Made by a program: the position numbers and the translations under genes. Below, in pieces: positions 19,339-34,141 of a stretch of 64,000 bases of DNA. This DNA is from Methanothrix sp. (GTDB lineage: Archaea > Halobacteriota > Methanosarcinia > Methanotrichales > Methanotrichaceae), in assembly GCF_030055635.1 (NCBI RefSeq), contig NZ_JASFYM010000010.1:1-64000 (forward strand). Direction: 5' to 3'. Position 1 is the stretch's first letter; the number at the start of each line of letters is the position of its first letter. Under the pieces are notes generated by a model that did no database searches, was not told the DNA's origin, and saw only the letters and a list, made by a program, of their open reading frames with translations.

Positions 19339-20214
19339 GTGAGTTGTTATGCAAAGCTGATCTTTGTGGCATTACTGCTCTGCATGCTCTCCGAATGTGG
19401 TGCAGCAGACGACAGGCTGAGAATTGCAACTACAACGAGCCTTTATGATACAAAGCTTCTAGACACGCTGGAGAGCCGGTTTGAGGAGGAGTATGGAATA
19501 TATGTTGACATAATCTCCGGTGGGACAGGGTTCGCGCTGGAGCAGGGGAGGCGCGGAGATGTGGATCTGCTTCTGATACATGACAAAGCAAGAGAGTACG
19601 AGTTCATAGCTGAAGGATATGGCACCGAGAGGAGATGCTTTGCGTACAACTACTTCTACATCGTCGGACCCGCCGATGATCCTGCAGGAGTAAAGGGCAT
19701 GAACGCATCCGAGGCGTTGAGGAGGATTGCAGATGCTGGAAAGAGCGATCCAGATGTGAAGTTCGTCTCACGCGGCGACAGCTCCGGGACGCATGCGCGT
19801 GAGAGGCTGCTCTGGAAGATCGCCGGCATCGAGCCTGCAGGGAGATGGTATCTTGAGTCTGGCCAGGGGATGGGAGCGACACTGATCATGGCAGATGAAA
19901 AGAGGGCTTACACGCTCACGGATATGTCGACGTACATGGCCTTCGCGGGCAACCTGAGCCTCGTGCCGCTGGTGACGGGGGGCGAGGAGCTTCTCAATGT
20001 GTACGCCGCAATACCGGTCTCTGCATCAGAGCATCCTGATCTCGCGGAGAGGTTCGTGGAGTTTCTTCTTTCTCATGAGGGGCAGGAGATCATAGCAGGC
20101 TACGGAAAAGATGTCCACGGAAGAGCGCTGTTCTATCCAGCAGCCGGTCACTGCGCAGAGATCGGATGCAATGCCTCGGAATGTCCGGGAGAGATGGTGA
20201 GCGCAGTTGGATGA
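19339..20214 (+). CDS. tupA: tungstate ABC transporter substrate-binding protein
   Basis: The protein has a signal peptide (MSCYAKLIFVALLLCMLSECG) and then the TupA signature IATTTSLYDTKLLDTL, the SGGTGFALEQGRRGDVDLLL segment, SRGDSSGTHARERLLW and YTLTDMSTYMAF. It binds tungstate outside the membrane for the TupBC transporter. A lipobox-like Cys is present near residue 20. GTG 19339 is the likely start, with GGGAG upstream. It overlaps tupB by eight bases. Tungsten is needed for tungsten-type formylmethanofuran dehydrogenase, whose B and D subunits are encoded at 35323-36921. Confidence 0.93.
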   Translation: MSCYAKLIFVALLLCMLSECGAADDRLRIATTTSLYDTKLLDTLESRFEEEYGIYVDIISGGTGFALEQGRRGDVDLLLIHDKAREYEFIAEGYGTERRCFAYNYFYIVGPADDPAGVKGMNASEALRRIADAGKSDPDVKFVSRGDSSGTHARERLLWKIAGIEPAGRWYLESGQGMGATLIMADEKRAYTLTDMSTYMAFAGNLSLVPLVTGGEELLNVYAAIPVSASEHPDLAERFVEFLLSHEGQEIIAGYGKDVHGRALFYPAAGHCAEIGCNASECPGEMVSAVG

Positions 20215-20893
20215 GATAGCAAGAGGATTCATCAGGGCGATCGAGCTGATACTCGAGCTGAACCCGGAGGTGATCGAGGTCGCACTCCGATCACTTTTCA
20301 TCTCGCTCGCCTCAGTCACCATCGCATCTCTGATCAATGTGCCTCTTGGGTGCCTGATACATTTTCACCGCTTCCCCGGGAAGAGCTGGATGATCAATCT
20401 GATACAGACCCTCTACAGCATGCCCACCGTGACCGTCGGGCTCCTAGTCTTCCTGCTCCTCTCAAGGTCTGGCCCGCTCGGAGGCTACGGACTTATGTAC
20501 ACTCCATACGGAATGATCATCGGCCAGACGGTGCTTATAACACCGGTCATCCTGGGGCTCACGGTATCCGCTCTCAGCGGTGTCAGCGACGATGTCAGGG
20601 ACACAGCAATCTCGCTTGGAGCTGACAGGCTGCAGGTGATGTGGACGGTGATAGCGGAGGCACGGGGCCCTGTGCTTGCGGCTGTGCTCCTCGGCTTCGG
20701 AAGAGCCCTCTCCGAGGTGGGCGTCGCGATGATGATAGGCGGAAACATAAGAGGATACACGAGAGTTCTCACGACGGCGATAGCTCTCGAGACATCCATG
20801 GGGAACCTGGAGATATCAATAGCTCTGGGTCTTATTCTGATCTCGATAGCTCTGGTGGTGAACACAGTTGTCGGCAGGGTCCAGGGGTGGTGA
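20207..20893 (+). CDS. tupB: tungstate ABC transporter permease
   Basis: This 228-aa membrane protein has about six transmembrane segments and the ABC permease EAA-type loop DTAISLGADRLQVMWTVIAEARGPVLAAVLLGFGRALSE. It matches TupB in length and in the YSMPTVTVGLLVFLLLSRSGP stretch. The start is TTG 20207 inside the end of tupA. It overlaps or abuts tupC. Confidence 0.93.
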   Translation: MDEIARGFIRAIELILELNPEVIEVALRSLFISLASVTIASLINVPLGCLIHFHRFPGKSWMINLIQTLYSMPTVTVGLLVFLLLSRSGPLGGYGLMYTPYGMIIGQTVLITPVILGLTVSALSGVSDDVRDTAISLGADRLQVMWTVIAEARGPVLAAVLLGFGRALSEVGVAMMIGGNIRGYTRVLTTAIALETSMGNLEISIALGLILISIALVVNTVVGRVQGW

Positions 20894-20895
20894 GG

Positions 20896-21657
20896 ATGAT
20901 CCAGCTTGAGGGTGTGACCGTGGAGAAGAACGGGATGATGATACTGAATGATATCAATATCGAGGTCAGGACCGGAGAGACTCTGGGGGTTATCGGGCCT
21001 ACAGGCGCCGGAAAGACAACGCTGCTCAGGGTGATGGATCTCATCGAGATTCCCTCAAAGGGTCGTGTGCTCTTCAGGGGTGAGGATCTTCAGAGAGAGA
21101 GCGAGAGGCTGGCAGCCAGGCGCAGGATCGGCGTGGTCTTCCAGCGGCCTGTGATGCTCAGGGGCAGCGTTTACGATAACGTGGCTTACGGCCTCAGGAT
21201 ACGCCGTTTATCTAAAGAGGAGATCGATGAGAGGGTCGGGGCCGCTCTCTCAGATGTCGGCCTGGAGGGATATGAGAGAAGGCCCGCAAGGACGCTCTCA
21301 GGAGGGGAGATGCAGAGGGTGGCGCTTGCAAGAGCTCTCGCGATAAGCCCGGAGCTCCTGCTCCTTGATGAGCCGACCGCCAATCTCGATCCCAGAACAT
21401 CTCATGTGATAGAGGATCTGATATCCAGGGCGAAGATGCGGGGGATGACCACGGTTATATCAACTCACGACCTGCCCCAGGCGGTGCGTCTGGCTGACAG
21501 GATTGTGATCATCATGGACGGCAGGGTGGTCTCATCCGGATCCGCGGAGTTCCTGATGAGCTCTGATTCCGATGACGTGAAGGCCTTCCTGCATGCAGGG
21601 ATGCTGAGACCGGTGGGCTGGAGGTTGGTTCATGAACACATGCGGGTTCCTCACTGA
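20896..21657 (+). CDS. tupC: tungstate ABC transporter ATP-binding protein
   Basis: The ABC ATPase has Walker A GPTGAGKTT, Q-loop VVFQRPVML, signature LSGGEMQRVALARAL, Walker B LLLLDEPTANLD and H-loop STHDL. ATG 20896 fits the AGGGG at 20883-20887; GTG 20890 would overlap the tupB stop. It completes the tupABC operon. The 3' end overlaps the Tfx gene by 26 bases. Confidence 0.94.
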   Translation: MIQLEGVTVEKNGMMILNDINIEVRTGETLGVIGPTGAGKTTLLRVMDLIEIPSKGRVLFRGEDLQRESERLAARRRIGVVFQRPVMLRGSVYDNVAYGLRIRRLSKEEIDERVGAALSDVGLEGYERRPARTLSGGEMQRVALARALAISPELLLLDEPTANLDPRTSHVIEDLISRAKMRGMTTVISTHDLPQAVRLADRIVIIMDGRVVSSGSAEFLMSSDSDDVKAFLHAGMLRPVGWRLVHEHMRVPH

Positions 21658-22063
21658 GAGGCAGATCCAGGTTCTGCGTCTCAGACGGAGGGGATTATCG
21701 CAGGAGGAGGTGGCTGAGATTTTAGGCACGACCAGATCGAATGTCAGCATCCTGGAGAGGAGGGCGATGCAGAACATAGACCGCGCGCTTGCGACCTTAA
21801 AGCAGTGGAAGATGATCCAGGCGCCTGTTGCCGTCAGGATCCCCGAGGGGACGGACCTCTTCGCCCTTCCCGGGATCATATTTAGAGAGGCCGACGCGCG
21901 AGGATTGAAGCTGCCGGTGAACTCCATCGATATCCTGGCGAAGTTGAAGGAGATCGCCCCGCATCTCACCAGGAGAAGGCTCATCGAGAGGAGTTTCGAT
22001 ATCTACGTCACGGAGGACGGAGAGATCTATGTTGAGGAGATCGATGAGAGCAAAGCGGTGTGA
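21632..22063 (+). CDS. Tfx family DNA-binding protein
   Basis: The N-terminal helix-turn-helix (LTERQIQVLRLRRRGLSQEE, then VAEILGTTRSNVSILERRA) matches Tfx, which in Methanothermobacter binds downstream of the fmdECB promoter for molybdenum formylmethanofuran dehydrogenase. The C-terminal ~80 residues are the conserved Tfx partner domain. Its overlap with tupC suggests it senses or reacts to the molybdate/tungstate state and may regulate this operon and fwd genes. That regulation is inferred. Confidence 0.9.
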   Translation: MNTCGFLTERQIQVLRLRRRGLSQEEVAEILGTTRSNVSILERRAMQNIDRALATLKQWKMIQAPVAVRIPEGTDLFALPGIIFREADARGLKLPVNSIDILAKLKEIAPHLTRRRLIERSFDIYVTEDGEIYVEEIDESKAV

Positions 22064-22393: not shown

Positions 22394-23344
22394 CTAACTG
22401 TGTGCACCCCTCTCCCCGACCCTGGTGATGACGGATGCAACAAGCAGAGGAAGCGTTATTGTCGCGTCCCCGTAGACCGTGACGTGCCTCGCCTCAGGAT
22501 CTATCTTTCCCCAGGATATCGCCTCTGATAGCGTCGCGCCTGAGAGACCGCCTGCCTCTGGATGATCTGTTGTGAGCTGGATCGCGAGCCTGAAGCTGTT
22601 CGGGGTTACGAGCATCGACTGCAGGGCGAAGTTCTTGGGAACCCCACCACCGACAATCAGTATTCCAGCCCTCTCCGATTCGTAGCATATATCGACTATC
22701 TCCTTCACATCACCGAGAACATCTACGTTCAGCTTTTTTGTCTGCCTGTGGAGCCATGCCTGAAGCCCTATCATCGAGTCCGCTATCGCGGGGCAGAACA
22801 CAGGCACACCACAGTCGCTGGCGCTTCTGAGTATCGATCTCCTGTCGTCTATCTTAGACCCTATCTCTGCCAGAAGAGCCCTTCCTGAGATGGGATCTTC
22901 CCTGTCAGGAAGCACATTCTGGACCAGCTCCTCGAACCTTACGAAGTCCTCGTCTGTTATGTACACATCGTATATCCTCGATATCCCAGACCTCCTCAGC
23001 TCCGAGTCATCCGCCTCAACATATCCGAGGCAGTGATGGCTGAACGATTCCACGATATCATGCACAAGATTCGCTCCTGTTGTGACGAGCACATCTATCA
23101 TTCCTCTCCTTATGAGATCGGAGATCAGATCCCTCATGCCAGCAGGCACCATCGCACCTGCGAGGGTGAAGAACTTCCTGTAATCCCCCTCCACCATCTC
23201 CTGATAGATCTCAGCGGCATGTGCGAGCCTGCGTGCACCGAAGCCGCAGCCCTCCATGCCCCTCACCATCTCATCCACACTCATATTAGGCCTTACAGAA
23301 AGCTGTCGAACACGGTCCATCAGCATCGCTCCATGGATCAGCAT
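22394..23344 (-). CDS. dys: deoxyhypusine synthase
   Basis: The enzyme transfers the aminobutyl group of spermidine to a lysine of aIF5A. The active-site lysine is in LSEAISWGKIDPEA, the NAD-binding TTGANLVHD and GDATITLPLLVAS are present. The length of 316 aa is normal for archaea. Start alternatives are ATG 23344, 23326 and 23284. An inverted repeat CTGATGG...CCATCAG (23354-23383) lies just upstream of the start and could be an operator. Confidence 0.95.
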   Translation of the reverse strand: MLIHGAMLMDRVRQLSVRPNMSVDEMVRGMEGCGFGARRLAHAAEIYQEMVEGDYRKFFTLAGAMVPAGMRDLISDLIRRGMIDVLVTTGANLVHDIVESFSHHCLGYVEADDSELRRSGISRIYDVYITDEDFVRFEELVQNVLPDREDPISGRALLAEIGSKIDDRRSILRSASDCGVPVFCPAIADSMIGLQAWLHRQTKKLNVDVLGDVKEIVDICYESERAGILIVGGGVPKNFALQSMLVTPNSFRLAIQLTTDHPEAGGLSGATLSEAISWGKIDPEARHVTVYGDATITLPLLVASVITRVGERGAHS

Positions 23345-23548: not shown

Positions 23549-25006
23549 CTAAACACGCGCATCCCCATATGCCTCCTCTGCGGTCTCCACGACGAGAGAT
23601 ATGAGGTCCTCTGGCCTGTTTATGTAGTAAACCCTTCCGAGAGAGCTGAGAGCCTCCAGGACATACCTGTCCCTCCCCTTCTCGTCTATGCAGAAGAGCA
23701 CAAACCTTCCGATTGATGCGGCCTCTTTGATGTACTCCCACTGGGTGTAAAGGTTCTGTATTCCTGTGTCTGTTATGCACAGTATCAGGCAGCCCCTCCT
23801 CTCCTTCACCAGCTCCAGGATCCTGCTTCCTGGTATGTTCGTTCTCCCGCATAGGTACTCAACCAGAACATCCTCTACAGCATCAAGGTCCCTGCACCAC
23901 GGCTGCACAAGAAATCTCTCGCTGAAGTTTATTGCGGCGATCTCAGCGCCCTGCTCGTAGGCGAACTGTGCAGCCTTGAACGCCGCCAGCGTAGCGTAGA
24001 ACGTCCTCGATCCCCTTCTGTGGCCGTCCATGGACCTGCTGCTGTCGAGAACCACAAGAAGATCCGGAACATCGGATCTTCCAGGAGTCATGCTGCATGA
24101 CTCGCACTCTCTCCTGTAAGTGGTCACCCCCGGAACAAGCCGGGTGCTCATGCTGAGCGAGTAGTTCACATCCAGCTCGCTCGGAGGATCATCGAAGCGC
24201 CATCTCGTCGTGCCTGTCGGGTAGGAATCTCTCCTGCTGGACCTGCTAGCAGCGATCTCTATTCTGTACCCCTGGTCGCGGTACCACCGCTTGAGATCCC
24301 CCCTGATGCCAAGCACGTCCAGGCACCTCATGTACTCCTCCGGCTCGAGCTCAGATGCGAGACCTGAGAGCGGGGCGGATCTCGCATTCCCCCGCAAAAT
24401 CTCCAGGGATCTGATCTCGTCCCTTCCAAGATATCCTGGGGATAGCGGAGAAAGGACCATGGCCATCTGCTGGCACTGTCTCTTCCACAGAGACCTCTCC
24501 CGAACGCCGGAGGCGAAGATCTGGAGCAGAAGTCTCGTCTCTGGTGTCTCCGATGCGCCGCAGACATCCACAGACCAGTACCTCTCGAGGAACGATAGAA
24601 TCGCCATATCCAGCTCTGATTCTGCATGCTCAGCAGTACGCCTCCAGAGGTGGATCACCTTCTGCTCGTCGGATTCACTCCTCTCCAGCCTGAAGGAGTC
24701 TACCACTATATCGCTGAAAATGTTCACGATCGTCCTCGCAAAGCCCGTATCGTTTCTCTTGATGCCCCGCAGAGCTGAGAGGGCCAGCTCACCGGCAACC
24801 TCAAGCGACCTCGGGCAGAGGATGTAATGCAGAATGAGATGCTCGAAGAGACTCTCCAGATATATCTCATCGCTCAGATCCTCCTCCCTGATGGATATCC
24901 TGTAGTTGTCGAAGGGGAAGACGCCGGAGCCGTCAGAGGATATCACCGGGCGCGGAAGCTGCGGGTAGTGCCACTCGCTCCGTGCCATCTCCCATATCCT
25001 GAGCAT
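23549..25006 (-). CDS. VWA-domain protein, partner of the MoxR-like ATPase
   Basis: The C-terminal ~170 residues are a von Willebrand A domain with a full MIDAS motif: DSSRS (about 321-325), T in GRTNIP, and D in CITDTG. The N-terminal part contains EHLILHY (about 55-61) followed by NIFSDIVVDSF. This H-x3-H plus D arrangement recalls the putative metallopeptidase part of DUF2201/VWA proteins, but the canonical HExxH is absent. ATG 25006 directly follows the stop of the GXGXG gene (TGAGATG), so the two are coupled. MoxR/VWA pairs usually remodel or load metal centres of a target enzyme; the target here is unknown. Confidence 0.85.
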   Translation of the reverse strand: MLRIWEMARSEWHYPQLPRPVISSDGSGVFPFDNYRISIREEDLSDEIYLESLFEHLILHYILCPRSLEVAGELALSALRGIKRNDTGFARTIVNIFSDIVVDSFRLERSESDEQKVIHLWRRTAEHAESELDMAILSFLERYWSVDVCGASETPETRLLLQIFASGVRERSLWKRQCQQMAMVLSPLSPGYLGRDEIRSLEILRGNARSAPLSGLASELEPEEYMRCLDVLGIRGDLKRWYRDQGYRIEIAASRSSRRDSYPTGTTRWRFDDPPSELDVNYSLSMSTRLVPGVTTYRRECESCSMTPGRSDVPDLLVVLDSSRSMDGHRRGSRTFYATLAAFKAAQFAYEQGAEIAAINFSERFLVQPWCRDLDAVEDVLVEYLCGRTNIPGSRILELVKERRGCLILCITDTGIQNLYTQWEYIKEAASIGRFVLFCIDEKGRDRYVLEALSSLGRVYYINRPEDLISLVVETAEEAYGDARV

Positions 25007-25007
25007 C

Positions 25008-25742
25008 TCACCTTCTTCCAATCTCGATCCTGACACCGCCCGCCCTCCAGCCTGCGTTCTTTCCAGCATTGCCGCAGATCTTTATCAAGCCGCCCTTCGC
25101 GAGTATCCCTGCGTAATCCCCCGCGTCTCCGAGCACGGTCAGACGTCCTGAGCGCATCAGCCAGCCGGCCCTCTCGCCGACGTTGCCCTTGACGAGTATC
25201 CTGCCTCCGGAGTTGTTTACCCCGATGAAGCTTCCCGCATCTCCCAGGATCACGCCCCATCCCCCGCTCATGTTCCTGAACGCATAGGTCCCGCATGAGG
25301 ATGCGACTATCCCACCTCCGGTCATCCCCTGACCGAGGTAATCACCCGCCTCACACATCCTGATCATGCCGAAGCTCATCCTCTCGCCCACATGTGATGG
25401 TCTGCTCTTCTTATCACCGCTCAGTATGAGATTCCCACGGGAGAGCTCAAGCCCCGCGAAGTCCATGGGGCGCACGGTGACAGGCTGCTCGGATCTCTCT
25501 GCTGCGATGCTTGTGATGTAACCCCATATCACAGATTCCTTCTTTCCATGAGGTGTGCTCGATAGAAGTCTTGGAATTATGTCATCGCTGACCAGCTCCG
25601 CGATCTCCCCCTTCTCCGGATGATCCGCGACCCTATCTGCGAGATCCTCGAGGCTTATTACTCTTTCCCCTTTACCGGATTTTAGCCTTTTGTGCCGGAT
25701 CCTTCCTCCATATGCGCTCTCCATCATCTCCTTCAGTCCCAT
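25008..25742 (-). CDS. GXGXG-motif beta-helix protein
   Basis: Residues ~125-244 are a run of GxxxG/GG repeats (for example GQGMTGGGIVASS, NSGGRILVKGNVGERAG, LAKGGLIKICGNAGKNAG) that match the GXGXG domain of glutamate synthase alpha C-terminus and FwdC. This makes a right-handed beta-helix. The N-terminal ~120 residues are not recognised. There is no glutamate synthase or FwdC partner next to it. It lies between the ATPase and VWA genes on the same strand and overlaps neither. A scaffold or cofactor-protein-assembly role is an inference from that context. Confidence 0.85.
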   Translation of the reverse strand: MGLKEMMESAYGGRIRHKRLKSGKGERVISLEDLADRVADHPEKGEIAELVSDDIIPRLLSSTPHGKKESVIWGYITSIAAERSEQPVTVRPMDFAGLELSRGNLILSGDKKSRPSHVGERMSFGMIRMCEAGDYLGQGMTGGGIVASSCGTYAFRNMSGGWGVILGDAGSFIGVNNSGGRILVKGNVGERAGWLMRSGRLTVLGDAGDYAGILAKGGLIKICGNAGKNAGWRAGGVRIEIGRR

Positions 25743-25835
25743 CGTCCCAGCCCCGGTACGGGAAAACAGATCGTGATGTTCGTCGACATCTCAACACCTC
25801 TTGATCCAGCGGCGTAGGTGTCGATTTCCCTTACA

Positions 25836-27107
25836 CTACCTCATTCTCTCGAGCATCGGGATGTAATCCAGCCTTGCGATGGGGTCGTCGTACTCGGAGA
25901 GTTCTTTTACTGCTCTATCAACAGAGATCTCACCATCGATCGCTCTCGAGAATATCATGTTCATCTCCCCGCGCTCGTTAACGGTCCTGTCTATGCTCTT
26001 CTGAACCAGATCGGAGATGTACTCCAGGCGCCTTGCGCCGTAGTATGGCGGCCTCTCAAGCATGGAGCGGTTCGGTGTCACCCTGTGCCATATGATGTAG
26101 GGTGCAACCGCTCTAAGAACCTCGATTCTGGATCTGTCATTGATACCGCATACAAATGAGACTGCCTTCGTGAACGCTCTCAGATCCTGGCGGACCCTGT
26201 CCGAGAGCCCCTCATCGACCTGCCAGCAGCAGACCTCAGGGTTGTTGAAGTAATGGCATCCAGAGCAGAGACCGTGATTTGGGTTCTTCCCAGAGAGCTG
26301 TGTCTTGTCGAAGCACGGTGCGCGCTCGCATAGCGTGAAGTCTCGGATGAGTGAGACTATGCAGAGCTCTGCGAGAAGATCAAGCTTTATGCCATCGACC
26401 GCGTGGGGCAGCGCATCGAATTCGTCTGCTGAGAACCTCGGAAGCTGCTCAGCCAGATCTCTAACCTCATCCAAGCGCTCCGCGAGGTTCAGGCCAGCGA
26501 GAAAGTCAGGCTGTACCGCAGGCACACATGCTGATATTCTATCCATAAGAGCCTCATCAACAGGGTACGTGGAGCTGAACTCAGGGTTCATCGTGGCGAA
26601 GTAGCATGTGTCCCCCGGCACCAGCACCTGGCCCGCATAGGTTATCTTTCCCTTCTTGATGATCTCCAGGAAGAGGTTCTGCTTTCCGGCAGGAAACCTG
26701 TTGATCTCGTTGATGAGCTTCCATCTCGATCTCGCCCAGGGCGTCCAGAGCACTCTGATCTCTGTGCTGGAGTGCTGCATCCACTGTCTTGGATCTATGA
26801 ATCCGATGATCTTCTCCTCCGTCTGCTCTGGGTGGCCGGAGACCATGAGGTTCTCAACATCATCAAAGCTCATGTTCATGAAAGCGCTGCCCAGAATGTT
26901 CACAAGCGTGGTCTTGTTCGCGCCCATGCCGCCGTAGAGAATAACAGCCCTGTTCCTCAGGCATGCATTGGCTAGACAGAAGATGAGCTGCGCATTGAAC
27001 CTCCTGGATCCGATGGAGAGATCCCTTACTCCGACGTGAAGGCGCAGCTCCTCCAGGGCATTCATGAGCGATGTGAGCTTAGAGAGCAGATCCCCAGACG
27101 GTACCAT
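25836..27107 (-). CDS. MoxR-like AAA+ ATPase with a Cys-rich insertion
   Basis: Walker A reads GGMGANKTT (59-67), with Asn where Gly usually precedes the Lys. Walker B is LINEINRFP (131-139), and sensor 1 is FATMNPEFSSTYPVDEALMDR-like, as in MoxR/RavA ATPases. Residues 249-294 hold seven Cys (249, 260, 265, 281, 284, 293, 294) including CSGC and CC. That is unusual for MoxR and suggests a zinc or Fe-S site. The 423-aa length exceeds typical MoxR (~320). It heads the ATPase/GXGXG/VWA set, with 93 bases before the next gene, and is divergent from the acetyl-CoA synthetase cluster. Confidence 0.87.
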   Translation of the reverse strand: MVPSGDLLSKLTSLMNALEELRLHVGVRDLSIGSRRFNAQLIFCLANACLRNRAVILYGGMGANKTTLVNILGSAFMNMSFDDVENLMVSGHPEQTEEKIIGFIDPRQWMQHSSTEIRVLWTPWARSRWKLINEINRFPAGKQNLFLEIIKKGKITYAGQVLVPGDTCYFATMNPEFSSTYPVDEALMDRISACVPAVQPDFLAGLNLAERLDEVRDLAEQLPRFSADEFDALPHAVDGIKLDLLAELCIVSLIRDFTLCERAPCFDKTQLSGKNPNHGLCSGCHYFNNPEVCCWQVDEGLSDRVRQDLRAFTKAVSFVCGINDRSRIEVLRAVAPYIIWHRVTPNRSMLERPPYYGARRLEYISDLVQKSIDRTVNERGEMNMIFSRAIDGEISVDRAVKELSEYDDPIARLDYIPMLERMR

Positions 27108-27462
27108 GATGCTCTCAGAAATGCCTGACGGGCTTAAAGGCTTTCCTTCACCGAGAGGACAAACACGTGTTCAGAGGTCTGCGCGATCTGAGAGGGTGGT
27201 TGATACGGGTCGTATTAATTTTATCTATATTATGAAAATATGTCCTTAAGATCTACCTGAATACCGGACGATCTGACCTCAAAAGAGCCCACCACCCAAG
27301 AGAAACTATAATTATTATTTATTATATTATCATAGGAATAGGGGGCGAATGATGGTGTAAACCAATAGATTTATTAATAATGAACATAATCTATCATTAA
27401 CATCTGCCGCACTGTTGCCCTCAGACCACGCGGCGGATGGAGATGAAAGGAGGTTTATAAAA
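27108..27462. other. divergent promoter region, MoxR-like set and acs1
   Basis: This 355-base gap is very AT-rich in its right half. It holds the acs1 TATA candidate (27370) and an acs1 leader of about 60 bases with a strong Shine-Dalgarno. The left part should contain the minus-strand promoter of the ATPase gene; TTAATTTTATC near 27216 is a possible part of it. No gene is seen. Confidence 0.5.
27370..27378 (+). promoter_or_regulatory. TATA box for acs1
   Basis: TTTATTAAT follows ATAGA, as in the acs3 promoter (ATAGATTTATAAAT). The start site would be near 27400, giving a ~60-base leader. AAAGGAGGT (27446-27454) precedes the ATG by eight bases. Confidence 0.5.
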
Positions 27463-29445
27463 ATGGCCGAGGAAACCGCAAAGACCGCGGTCCTTCTCGA
27501 GGAGAAGAGGTTGTTCCATCCCCCGAAGGACCTGGTCGAGAACTCAAATGTCATGCAGTGGATGAAGAAGAAGGGCTTCAAGACAGAGAAAGAGATGCGA
27601 GAGTGGTGCTCCAAGAACTATGTCGAGTTCTGGGATGAGATGGCCAAGACCTACGCGGATTGGTTTGAGCCCTACAAGCAGGTCCTCGACTGGAAGCCCC
27701 CGTATGCCAAGTGGTTCGTTGGCGGAAAGTGTAACATGGCCTACAACGCCGTGGACAGGCATGCGAAATCCTGGAGGAGGAATAAGGTAGCATACATTGC
27801 TGTGGGGGAGCCTCTTGGCGACGTAAGGAAGTTCACCTATGGGGATCTGTACAGGGAGGTCAACAAGCTTGCAAACGGCCTGAAGAGCCTGGGAGTCAAG
27901 AAGGGCGACAGAGTCAGCATATACATGCCCATGATTCCCGAGCTGCCGATAGCGATGCTCGCCTGCGCGAAGATCGGCGCGATTCACAGCGTCGTCTTCT
28001 CAGGATTCAGCTCGAAGGCTTATGCTGACAGGGTGATAGATGCGGAGTCAAAGATATCCATCACCGTGGATGGCTTCTGGAGGCGCGGCAAGATCGTGGA
28101 GCTCAAGAAGCAGGCGGATGAGGCGATTCAGGAAGCTCCAACTATAGAGCATCAGATCGTCTACAGGAGAACAGGACAGGATATCCCATGGAACAAGGAC
28201 AGGGACATATGGTGGCATGATCTTGTAAAAGATCAGCCGGCTGAGTGTGAGACCGAGCAGCTCGACCCGGAGCACAGGCTGTACATCCTGTACACATCAG
28301 GAACTACAGGAAAGCCAAAGGGCATTGAGCATGCGCACGGCGGATACTGCGTTGCTGTCCCGCAGACGCTGCACTGGGTCTTTGATCTCAAAGAGGATGA
28401 TGTCTGGTGGTGCACAGCCGATATCGGATGGGTCACAGGCCATTCGTACGTAGTCTACGGCCCGCTCTCACTCGGCGCGACCAGCATAATATATGAGGGC
28501 TCTCCTGATTACCCGGACTTCGGAAGATGGTGGTCCATAATCGAAGAGTTCGGCGTCAACGTGCTCTACACAGCTCCCACCGCCATAAGAATGTTCATGA
28601 GGGCTGGTGAGCAGTGGCCCGCCAAGTACAACCTGAAGAGTTTGAGGCTCCTGGGCACCGTGGGCGAGCCGATCAACCCCGAGGCCTGGGTATGGTACAG
28701 AAAGAACATCGGAAGGGACGAGCTCCAGATCATGGACACATGGTGGCAGACCGAGACCGGCACGTTCATAGGATCGCCGCTTCCGATAACACCGCTCAAG
28801 CCTGGAAGCTGCACGTTTGCCCTGCCCGGGTACAGCATGGATGTGTGGGATGAGGCCGGAAAGCCTGTGCCTCCCGGAGAGGGCGGCAACATAGTCATAC
28901 TTGAGCCGTATCCTTCGATGCTGAGAGACTTCTACAAGGATCCGCAGAGGTACTTCAGGACTTACTGGGAGACATACTGGAATGTCAGGCCCGGCACATA
29001 CCTGGCAGGCGATAAAGGAAGAAGGGATGAGGACGGCTACTTCTGGATACAGGGCAGGATCGATGATGTCATCAAGGTAGCGGGCCACAGGATCGGTAAC
29101 TCCGAGGTCGAGTCAGCCGCGGTCTCGCATCCAAAGGTCGCAGAGGCAGCAGTCATCGGCAAGCCGGATCCGGTCAAGGGCGAGGTCATAATAGTATTCG
29201 CTATCCTCAGGGAGGGTGTGCAGGAGAGCGAGGAGCTGAAGAAGGACATCGCACAGCATATCCGAGCCACACTCGGGCCTGTGGCAATGCCTGAGGCTGT
29301 CTACTTCGTCAAGGACGTGCCGAAGACCAGATCCGGAAAGATCATGCGCAGGGTCATAAGGGCAAAGGCGATGGGGCAGCCGGTCGGTGACATCTCCACA
29401 CTTGCAAATCCAGAGGCTGTGGACGCTATACCGAAGATCGTGTAG
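27463..29445 (+). CDS. acs: acetyl-CoA synthetase (AMP-forming), copy 1
   Basis: The enzyme activates acetate to acetyl-CoA with ATP giving AMP and PPi, the first step of aceticlastic methanogenesis in this lineage. The 660-aa protein has the adenylation motif [11 protein letters not shown] (near residue 277), [24 protein letters not shown] and the C-terminal lysine in [11 protein letters not shown] (near 626), the site acetylated in bacterial Acs. It is the most divergent of the three in its central region ([23 protein letters not shown]). The strong Shine-Dalgarno and AT-rich leader suggest high expression. Confidence 0.97.
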
Positions 29446-29793: not shown

Positions 29794-31782
29794 ATGGCTG
29801 AGCAAAAAGCTGCTACAACTGCGGTTCTTCTTGAGGAGACAAGAGTATTCTATCCCCCGAAGGAGCTAGTGGAGAACTCAAACGTCATGCAGTGGATGAA
29901 GAAGAAGGGCTTCACCACTGAGAGGGAGATGCGCGCCTGGACCGGCCAGCACTACATAGAGTTCTGGGATGAGATGGCGAAGACGTATGCCGACTGGTTC
30001 GAGCCGTATGCGCAGATCCTCGAGTGGAAGCCGCCGTATGCGAAGTGGTTCGTGGGTGGCAAGTGCAACGTCGCATACAATGCCGTGGACAGACATGCGA
30101 AGGGCGCAAAGAAGGACAAGGTCGCCTATATCTTCGTGCCAGAGCCGACAGATCAGAAGGTGCAGAAGATAACTTACCTGGATCTGTACAAGGCTGTCAA
30201 CAAGTTCGCAAACGGCCTGAAGAGTCTTGGTGTAAAGAAGGGCGACAGGGTCAGCATATACATGCCCATGATCCCGGAGACACCGATAGCGATGCTCGCC
30301 TGCGCGAAGATCGGCGCGATTCACAGCGTGGTCTTCTCAGGATTCAGCGCTGGCGGTCTGCAGAGCAGGGTGCTCGATGCGGAGTCCAAGGTTGTCGTCA
30401 CCACCGATGGCTTCTACAGGCGCGGCAAGCCGCTCCCGCTCAAGCCGAACGTCGATGAGGCTGTGCAGAACGCCCCGAGCGTTGAGAAGGTTGTAGTGGT
30501 CAAGAGAGCCGGAATCGATGTTCCCATGAAGGAGGGCCGCGACATCTGGTACCACGAGCTCATAGCCAATCAGCCGGACGAGTGTGAGACGGAGAAGATG
30601 GACTCGGAGGACAGGCTGTTCATCCTGTACACATCAGGCACAACAGGGAAGCCAAAGGGCATTGAGCACGTCCATGGTGGATACTGCGTGACACCAGCAC
30701 AGACTCTCCACTGGGTCTTCGATCTCAAGGACAACGATGTCTGGTGGTGCACAGCAGATGTCGGATGGATCACAGGCCACTCCTACGTCGTCTACGGCCC
30801 GCTCTGCCTGGGTGCGACGAGCATACTCTACGAGGGCGCTCCTGACTATCCGGACTTCGGCAGATGGTTCAGCATAATCCAGGATAACAAGGTCTCCGTG
30901 CTCTACACAGCTCCCACTGCGATCAGGATGTTCATGAAGGCTGGCGAGCAGTGGCCGCTGAAGTACGACCTGTCCAGCCTGAGGCTGCTCGGCTCGGTCG
31001 GCGAGCCCATCAACCCTGAGGCGTGGGTATGGTACAGGAAGTACTTCGGAGGCGACAGGTGCCCGATCATGGATACCTGGTGGCAGACAGAGACTGGATG
31101 CTTCGTGGTCTCTCCACTACCGATCACACCGCTCAAGCCTGGCTCGGCAACATTCCCGCTGCCCGGATTCAACACTGACATCTACGATGAGGATGCAAAC
31201 CCGGTGCCCCCAGGAATGGGCGGAAACATCGTCAACATTACACCCTGGCCGTCGATGCTCCGTGCGTTCTACAGGGATCCTGAGAGGTACATGAAGGAGT
31301 ACTGGCAGATGTACTGGGACATCAGGCCCGGTATATATCTCGCGGGCGATAAGGCCACAAGGGACAAGGACGGATACTTCTTCATCCAGGGCAGGATCGA
31401 TGATGTGCTGAAGGTCGCAGGCCACAGGATCAGCAACGCCGAGGTCGAGTCCGCTCTCGTCTCCCATCCGGCAGTTGCCGAGGCAGCTGTCATCGGCAAG
31501 CCCGACGAGGTCAAGGGCGAGGTCATCGTGGCCTTCGTGATCCTCAGGGAGGGCGTGAAGGAGAGCGAGGACCTCAAGAAGGAGCTTGCAAAGCACGTCA
31601 GAGGTGTTCTCGGGCCTGTTGCCTATCCGGAGATCGTCTACTTCGTCAAGGATGTGCCGAAGACAAGATCCGGAAAGATCATGCGCAGGGTCATAAAGGC
31701 CAAGGCGCTTGGCAACCCCGTGGGAGACATCTCCGCGCTTGCGAATCCGGATGCAGTGGACGCCATACCGCTCATCAAGTGA
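29794..31782 (+). CDS. acs: acetyl-CoA synthetase (AMP-forming), copy 2
   Basis: This 662-aa paralog has all motifs: [35 protein letters not shown] and [11 protein letters not shown]. It has its own promoter and terminator, so it can be regulated apart from copies 1 and 3. Its central part ([16 protein letters not shown], then [20 protein letters not shown]) is almost identical to copy 3 at DNA level, while its N-terminus ([14 protein letters not shown]) differs from both others. Confidence 0.97.
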
Positions 31783-32161: not shown

Positions 32162-34141
32162 ATGGCTGAGACTGCAAAGACTGCTGTTCTGCAGGAGGAG
32201 ACCAGGATATTCAACACTCCCCAGTGGATAATCGAGTACTCGAACTCCTACCAGTGGATGAAGAAGAAGGGCTTCAAGACAGAGAAGGAGATGCGAGAGT
32301 GGTGCGCCCAGAACTATCTTGACTTCTGGGACGAGATGGCCCAGACGTATGCGGACTGGTTCAAGCCATACACCCAGATCCTCGAGTGGAACCCGCCATA
32401 TGCGAAGTGGTTCATTGGCGGCAAGTGCAACGTCGCGTACAACGCCGTGGACAGGCACGCGAAGTCCTGGCGCAGGAACAAGGTCGCGTACTACTTCGTC
32501 GGCGAGCCTGTTGGCGACACAAAGACGATCACGTACTACCAGCTCTACCAGGCTGTCAACAAGATGGCAAACGGCCTGAAGAGTCTGGGAGTCAAGAAGG
32601 GCGACAGGGTCAGCATATACCTGCCGATGATCCCCGAGCTCCCGATCACGATGCTCGCTTGCGCGAAGATCGGCGCGATCCACAGCGTCGTCTTCTCAGG
32701 ATTCAGCGCTGGCGGTCTGCAGAGCAGGGTTACCGATGCAGAGGCGAAGGTAGTCGTCACATCTGATGGCTTCTACAGGCGCGGCAAGCCGCTCCCGCTC
32801 AAGCCGAACGTCGATGAGGCTGTGCAGAACGCCCCGAGCGTCGAGAAGGTCGTCGTGGTCAAGAGGGCAGGGCTTGATGTGCCCATGAAGGAGGGCCGTG
32901 ACATATGGTACCATGACCTCGTCAAGGATCAGCCCGCAGAGTGCTACACGGAGGAGCTCGATCCTGAGGACAGGCTGTTCATTCTCTACACATCAGGCAC
33001 AACAGGAAAGCCAAAGGGCATCGAGCATGCACATGGCGGCTTCTGTGTCGGCCCCGCATACACGACCGCATGGGCTCTGGATGTCCATGAGGAGGATGTC
33101 TACTGGTGCACAGCTGACTGCGGCTGGATCACAGGCCACTCCTACGTCGTATACGGCCCGCTCTGCTTGGGCGCGACGAGCATACTCTACGAGGGCGCTC
33201 CTGACTATCCAGATATCGGCAGATGGTGGTCCATCATCGAGGAGTACGGAGTCTCTGTATTCTACACAGCCCCCACTGCGATCAGGATGTTCATGAAGGC
33301 CGGCGATCAGTGGCCGAAGAAGTACAACCTCAAGTCGATCAGGATCCTGGCATCTGTCGGCGAGCCGCTCAACCCGGAGGCATACGTCTGGTTCAGGAAC
33401 AACATCGGGGGAGGGCAGGCACCGATCATCGATACATGGTGGCAGACTGAGACCGGATGCCATGTGATCGCCCCGCTCCCGATGACACCTGAGAAGCCTG
33501 GCTCTGTGGCATTCCCGCTGCCTGGGTTCAATACAGACATCTACGATGAGGACGGCAACTCCGTGCCGCTCGGCTACGGCGGCAACATCGTCCAGAAGAC
33601 GCCCTGGCCGTCGATGCTCCGCGCCTTCTTCAGGGATCCTGAGAGGTACATGAAGGAGTACTGGCAGATGTACTGGGACATCAAGCCCGGCACATACCTG
33701 GCAGGCGACAAGGCGACGAGGGACAAGGACGGCTACTGGTGGATCCAGGGCAGGATTGATGATGTGCTGAAGGTCGCAGGCCACAGGATCAGCAACGCCG
33801 AGGTCGAGTCCGCAGCGGTCTCGCATCCAGCGGTTGCTGAGGCAGCTGTCATCGGCAAGCCCGACGAGGTCAAGGGCGAGGTCATCGTGGCCTTCGTGAT
33901 CCTCAAGGAGGGCGTGCAGGAGAGCGAGGACCTCAAGAAGGACATCGCAAAGCACGTCAGGAGCGTGCTCGGGCCTGTTGCCTATCCGGAGATCGTCTAC
34001 TTCGTCAAGGACGTGCCAAAGACAAGATCCGGAAAGATCATGCGCAGGGTCATAAAGGCCAAGGCGCTGGGCAAGCCGGTCGGCGACATCTCAGCCCTCG
34101 CCAACCCCGAGTCCGTCGAGAACATCCCGCTCATCGTCTGA
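32162..34141 (+). CDS. acs: acetyl-CoA synthetase (AMP-forming), copy 3
   Basis: The 659-aa protein has [35 protein letters not shown] and [11 protein letters not shown]. It is a mosaic: its N-terminal ~110 residues follow copy 1 ([24 protein letters not shown]), while the centre and C-terminal part follow copy 2 ([35 protein letters not shown]). Its own stretch [24 protein letters not shown] differs from both. It has its own promoter, long leader and T-rich terminator. Confidence 0.97.

Follow-up and report, generated by a model that had tools for sequence, protein, structure and literature searches.

Several metalloenzymes are matured by protein pairs that combine a MoxR-type AAA+ ATPase with a partner containing a VWA domain. 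Pairs such as NorQ/NorD and CbbQ/CbbO insert the metal or activate the enzyme, and in systems of the CbbQ/CbbO, NorQ/NorD and CoxD/CoxE type the client is usually encoded by neighbouring genes. To our knowledge, there is no archaeal MoxR/VWA case with an identified client. That MoxR proteins mature specific enzyme complexes is well known (PMC3893208), and in the NorQ-NorD mechanism a finger of the VWA protein sits in the AAA+ pore while ATP drives twisting of a linker (PMC13036017). Bacteria also have ternary MoxR-vWA systems, in which the additional conserved component is VMAP, iSTAND, FtsH or a beta-propeller (PMC7159879). Here we analyse an archaeal set in which a MoxR-like ATPase and a VWA protein are accompanied by a GXGXG beta-helix protein. 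No paper on a GXGXG protein as the third part of a MoxR/VWA system was found in the openly accessible literature, nor any mention in papers of the locus tags around Mthe_1193, nor a relevant paper on MoxR in Methanothrix, Altiarchaeum or A. veneficus. The trio thus looks undescribed, in agreement with the original prediction that it fits no known pair; the MoxR/VWA kind of machine is itself known.

The set lies in a 64,000-nucleotide stretch of Methanothrix sp. DNA (hereafter, the window), where it occupies positions 27107-23549 of the minus strand in the order MoxR, GXGXG, VWA (Table 1). The three open reading frames were found exactly where they had been predicted, and those of the GXGXG and VWA proteins overlap by 62 bases. 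Directly downstream on the same strand is a deoxyhypusine synthase gene (22394-23344; PRK02301, 1e-141). Three tandem acetyl-CoA synthetase-like genes on the plus strand (27415-29445, 29794-31782 and 32162-34141), which group together by similarity, are divergent from the set. An ABC transporter, also on the plus strand (19339-22063; binding protein, permease and ATPase), looks like the tungstate/molybdate type and is followed by a gene for a Tfx-type DNA-binding protein; both are conserved beside the set in this genus only.

Table 1. Genes of the set and the motifs and predicted elements within their products (window coordinates).
Feature	Position	Strand	Description
MoxR-like AAA+ ATPase	25836..27107	-	423 aa; AAA_5/AAA_3 matches; PDB fold match
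Walker A	26910..26933	-	GGMGANKT, residues 59-66; N in place of last G
Walker B	26706..26711	-	NE, residues 133-134; N in place of D
Cys4 insert	26226..26330	-	C260-x20-C281-x2-C284-H-x8-C294; possible metal or Fe-S site
GXGXG (FwdC-like beta-helix) protein	25008..25742	-	244 aa; ~100 N-terminal residues non-FwdC
VWA protein	23549..25069	-	506 aa; helical N-terminal domain, predicted hairpin, VWA domain
Predicted beta-hairpin before VWA domain	24071..24238	-	residues about 278-333; candidate MoxR-pore finger
MIDAS	24032..24046	-	DSSRS, residues 342-346; D342, S344, S346 invariant

Orthologues of the MoxR protein, with 64-92% identity, are present in 34 of 37 Methanotrichaceae genomes (61 genomes searched); the other families sampled among these 61 gave no orthologue and generic MoxR matches only. 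In each of the 30 Methanotrichaceae loci retrieved, the three genes are adjacent and keep one order, mostly overlapping by at least 4 bases in an operon structure. With ~50-90% identity and an unchanged order in about 30 genomes, the three reading frames are conserved more than chance would allow, and the pairwise distances of the three proteins correlate (r 0.75-0.89). Neighbours outside the set vary from genus to genus in this family. Divergent to the set in several of its genomes, from some of the other genera, is a gene cluster with members assigned by eye as PfkB-type kinase, aldolase-like, phosphoglycerate mutase-like and HprK-like (L034, L037, L038, L043, L045 and L050).

One Methanotrichaceae genome (G023) has lost the set. 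Next to a PfkB cluster that is still intact, the site that holds the three genes in relatives contains only a VWA remnant (L161:7554-8292); its last 135 residues are 94% identical to a relative, and the MIDAS DxSxS segment is missing. No MoxR orthologue was found genome-wide, and the set locus has no GXGXG gene either. Since the set was lost as a unit, joint function of its members would be expected, although a single deletion would also explain the loss. The scar marks a recent natural loss and is usable for comparison.

When 394 genomes of the phylum were searched with a VWA profile made from Methanotrichaceae alone, distant matches beyond that family came only from one family of 55 genomes (f9), which we take to be Archaeoglobaceae, its genome G125 presumably being A. 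veneficus. This profile missed several f9 genomes, which a combined profile recovered, and with the wider profile 14 genomes of the family match below 1e-100. A MoxR of the same type is encoded in 13 of these 14 and in none of the remaining 41, the exception (G335) being a genome that is 68% complete. Presence of MoxR and VWA therefore agrees in 54 of the 55 genomes (Fisher p ~1e-11, ignoring phylogeny), and 3 of 13 genera carry the set. It has diverged from the Methanotrichaceae version: the genes overlap in the order MoxR-VWA-GXGXG, a second GXGXG gene comes next in genus g64 and part of g55, and in g62 MoxR lies at a separate locus from the VWA-GXGXG pair. The second GXGXG gene of g55 adjoins a conserved gene, in both orientations (L141, L143, L202, L242 and L243), that is presumably TIGR00266/AIM24-like. 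In two genera of Archaeoglobaceae, MoxR is closely preceded by a radical SAM gene (L205:10297-11208, L206:10220-11101, L207:7983-8873 and L209:7518-8459).

The trio also occurs in Candidatus Altarchaeum. All four genomes encode a MoxR orthologue (51-52% identity) and a protein of 571-588 residues with two GXGXG regions, and a VWA protein belonging to the family of the set is encoded in three of them; nothing was matched in G422, a genome that may be incomplete. Here the three parts lie at separate loci, and gene order therefore does not account for their co-occurrence. A pair made up of a divergent MoxR protein (526 aa) and a VWA protein is encoded in G441, a further genome of the Altarchaeum phylum (L212:629-3671); its VWA member has a HETCH motif. 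The set thus co-occurs far beyond the genome of the window, and no glutamate synthase genes accompany it, which argues against the GXGXG gene being part of a glutamate synthase-like operon. Found in two further archaeal groups, the trio looks like a real enzyme-assembly machine. A scan of a genome collection used two peptide patterns, both taken from the Methanothrix version, and the Archaeoglobaceae version may therefore be far more widespread.

The MoxR protein matches AAA_5 (6e-5) and AAA_3 (1.5e-5) of Pfam, and the fold of its predicted structure matches MoxR 2r44 and RavA in the PDB. We compared Walker A and B, the sensor 1 Asn and the arginine finger as criteria of the MoxR branch. Across 42 sequences, K65, T66, E134, N174, D189 and R190 do not vary. 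Position 64 of Walker A is N in all Methanotrichaceae and Altarchaeum rows and G in Archaeoglobaceae, while position 133 of Walker B is N in 26 of 26 Methanotrichaceae rows and D in the other two lineages; both motifs are canonical in Archaeoglobaceae, where the Cys4 insert is also present. The altered Walker A had been predicted, and the change in Walker B had been missed. With both motifs non-canonical, the ATPase activity of the Methanotrichaceae protein is uncertain. The seven cysteines announced for residues 249-294 are all there in the window protein (249, 260, 265, 281, 284, 293 and 294); conservation narrows them to C260, C281, C284 and C294, which are kept in Methanotrichaceae and Archaeoglobaceae, with Altarchaeum retaining C281 alone, whereas 249, 265 and 293 are not conserved. 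The four make the insert a possible metal or Fe-S site. Residues 259-299 are predicted to be disordered (pLDDT below 50), and the model is therefore uninformative as to the geometry of the cysteines.

Pfam matches of the VWA protein are weak (0.05). Its predicted structure (pLDDT 82) has as its first PDB match the VWA domain of NorD in the NorQ-NorD complex (9qh8_G), followed by many other VWA/I domains. The MIDAS, predicted to be full, is so: D342, S344, S346, T410 and D434 are all invariant in 30 sequences from the three lineages. Ahead of the VWA domain the model places, at low confidence, a hairpin of ~50 residues with strands at 278-289 and 316-326, a layout that is likely to correspond to the finger of NorQD. 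The predicted H-x3-H element exists in the window protein as H77 and H81, and both positions vary among relatives: H77 is absent from most Archaeoglobaceae and H81 from several sequences. The Altarchaeum protein reads HEICH at this position, which, speculatively, might reflect an ancestral metallopeptidase-like site.

The GXGXG protein had been assigned to the FwdC/glutamate-synthase type without its usual partners, and this proved correct. It matches PF01493 (5.6e-7) and the model of FwdC, formylmethanofuran dehydrogenase subunit C (9e-20), and its profile matches FwdC (8.5e-21) and glutamate synthase (8.7e-7) in the PDB. Judged by sequence, it is closest to FwdC, the scaffold of formylmethanofuran dehydrogenase, which bridges the two catalytic modules of that enzyme (PMC11656701). 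The protein is nevertheless distinct from FwdC: its score of 71 bits is under the curated FwdC cut-off of 130.65, its N-terminal ~100 residues have no FwdC match and share a G-Y/F-x-x-S/T motif with relatives in other lineages, and no FwdA, FwdB or FwdD gene was seen beside it in the set loci of the three lineages. True FwdC genes adjoin a FwdA-like gene, and a FwdC proper is encoded separately in set-bearing genomes. The GXGXG proteins of the three lineages, which occur as single genes, pairs or a tandem fusion, form no single clade in a weak, poorly resolved tree.

The set shares with NorQ/NorD and CbbQ/CbbO an AAA+ MoxR protein and a VWA protein with a MIDAS. It differs from them in the FwdC-like third subunit, in having no client gene alongside, in the Cys4 insert of its MoxR and, in Methanotrichaceae, in the altered Walker motifs. 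RavA of E. coli likewise works with a VWA partner, ViaA, but the similarity is low, and we know of no GXGXG partner of ViaA. We think it somewhat probable that the set is a ternary machine of the MoxR/VWA kind, whose fixed FwdC-like subunit most likely is an adaptor or placeholder scaffold for a multi-subunit metalloenzyme client. The MoxR protein would form an AAA+ ring, the finger of the VWA protein would enter its pore, and the MIDAS metal would hold a partner, in the manner of NorD with NorQ. The third subunit probably binds the client; its beta-helix would dock on the metalloenzyme or mimic the enzyme's scaffold. Twisting of MoxR/VWA driven by ATP could then open or close the metalloenzyme for assembly or insertion of the cofactor.

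An unlikely reading, though one with an appreciable chance, is that the client is the GXGXG protein itself, or that this protein is a stable subunit of an enzyme, MoxR/VWA serving to mature a beta-helix complex whose other subunits are encoded elsewhere. Adjoining genes commonly encode the client in systems of the CbbQ/CbbO, NorQ/NorD and CoxD/CoxE type, and the single, paired and tandem-fused forms are what a structural subunit might show. However, a conserved catalytic partner gene is found beside the set in no lineage, and the Altarchaeum GXGXG gene adjoins that for ATP synthase subunit D, which is not a redox enzyme. Comparison of the set loci revealed no enzyme gene conserved as a neighbour across lineages, and gene neighbourhood was therefore not used as a clue to the client. 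The same variation bears on the original suggestion of a maturation factor for an enzyme of acetate or one-carbon metabolism (CODH/ACS or acetyl-CoA synthetase). Methanothrix lives on acetate, and in this genus the set is divergent from the acetyl-CoA synthetase genes; but it has these neighbours in this genus only, and CODH/ACS scores above the curated cut-off in 47 of the 55 Archaeoglobaceae genomes, most of them without the set. The link to acetate is not supported, and we regard such a role as very unlikely. In Archaeoglobaceae both CODH/ACS and FwdC are nearly universal, independently of whether the set is present, so that neither Fwd nor CODH/ACS generally depends on it; a variant form of either could still do so. 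Many Archaeoglobaceae genomes also have a second, shorter CdhC-like open reading frame of ~360 residues, below the family cut-off.

The bacterial ternary conflict systems (PMC7159879) likewise combine MoxR and vWA with a fixed third component, and the set could on this ground be a conflict or defence system. We consider this extremely unlikely. Its third part, GXGXG, is not among theirs; neither variable effectors nor an effector domain were found, and PADLOC gave no match. Unlike the bacterial systems, the set is archaeal, conserved and slow-evolving, as the identities among the MoxR proteins indicate, and is near-universal in Methanotrichaceae. Viral contigs were searched and gave no match. 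For the adaptor reading that we prefer, the client might be a FwdC-organised Mo/W enzyme, for example formylmethanofuran dehydrogenase, a guess in which we place rather little confidence. It is a longer shot that the Methanotrichaceae MoxR, with Asn in Walker A and B and the Cys4 insert before the lid, is a metal- or redox-gated switch, slow or non-hydrolysing, that assembles such an enzyme with the beta-helix as adaptor.

A third subunit related to an enzyme scaffold would hint at how client recognition works in a MoxR/VWA machine, and the altered ATPase site of the MoxR protein raises a testable question about how MoxR rings work. Little is known of how archaeal C1 enzymes are assembled, and the set would add a concrete candidate for a factor in this process. 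It is also a core trait of Methanothrix, which is a major organism in the conversion of acetate to methane.
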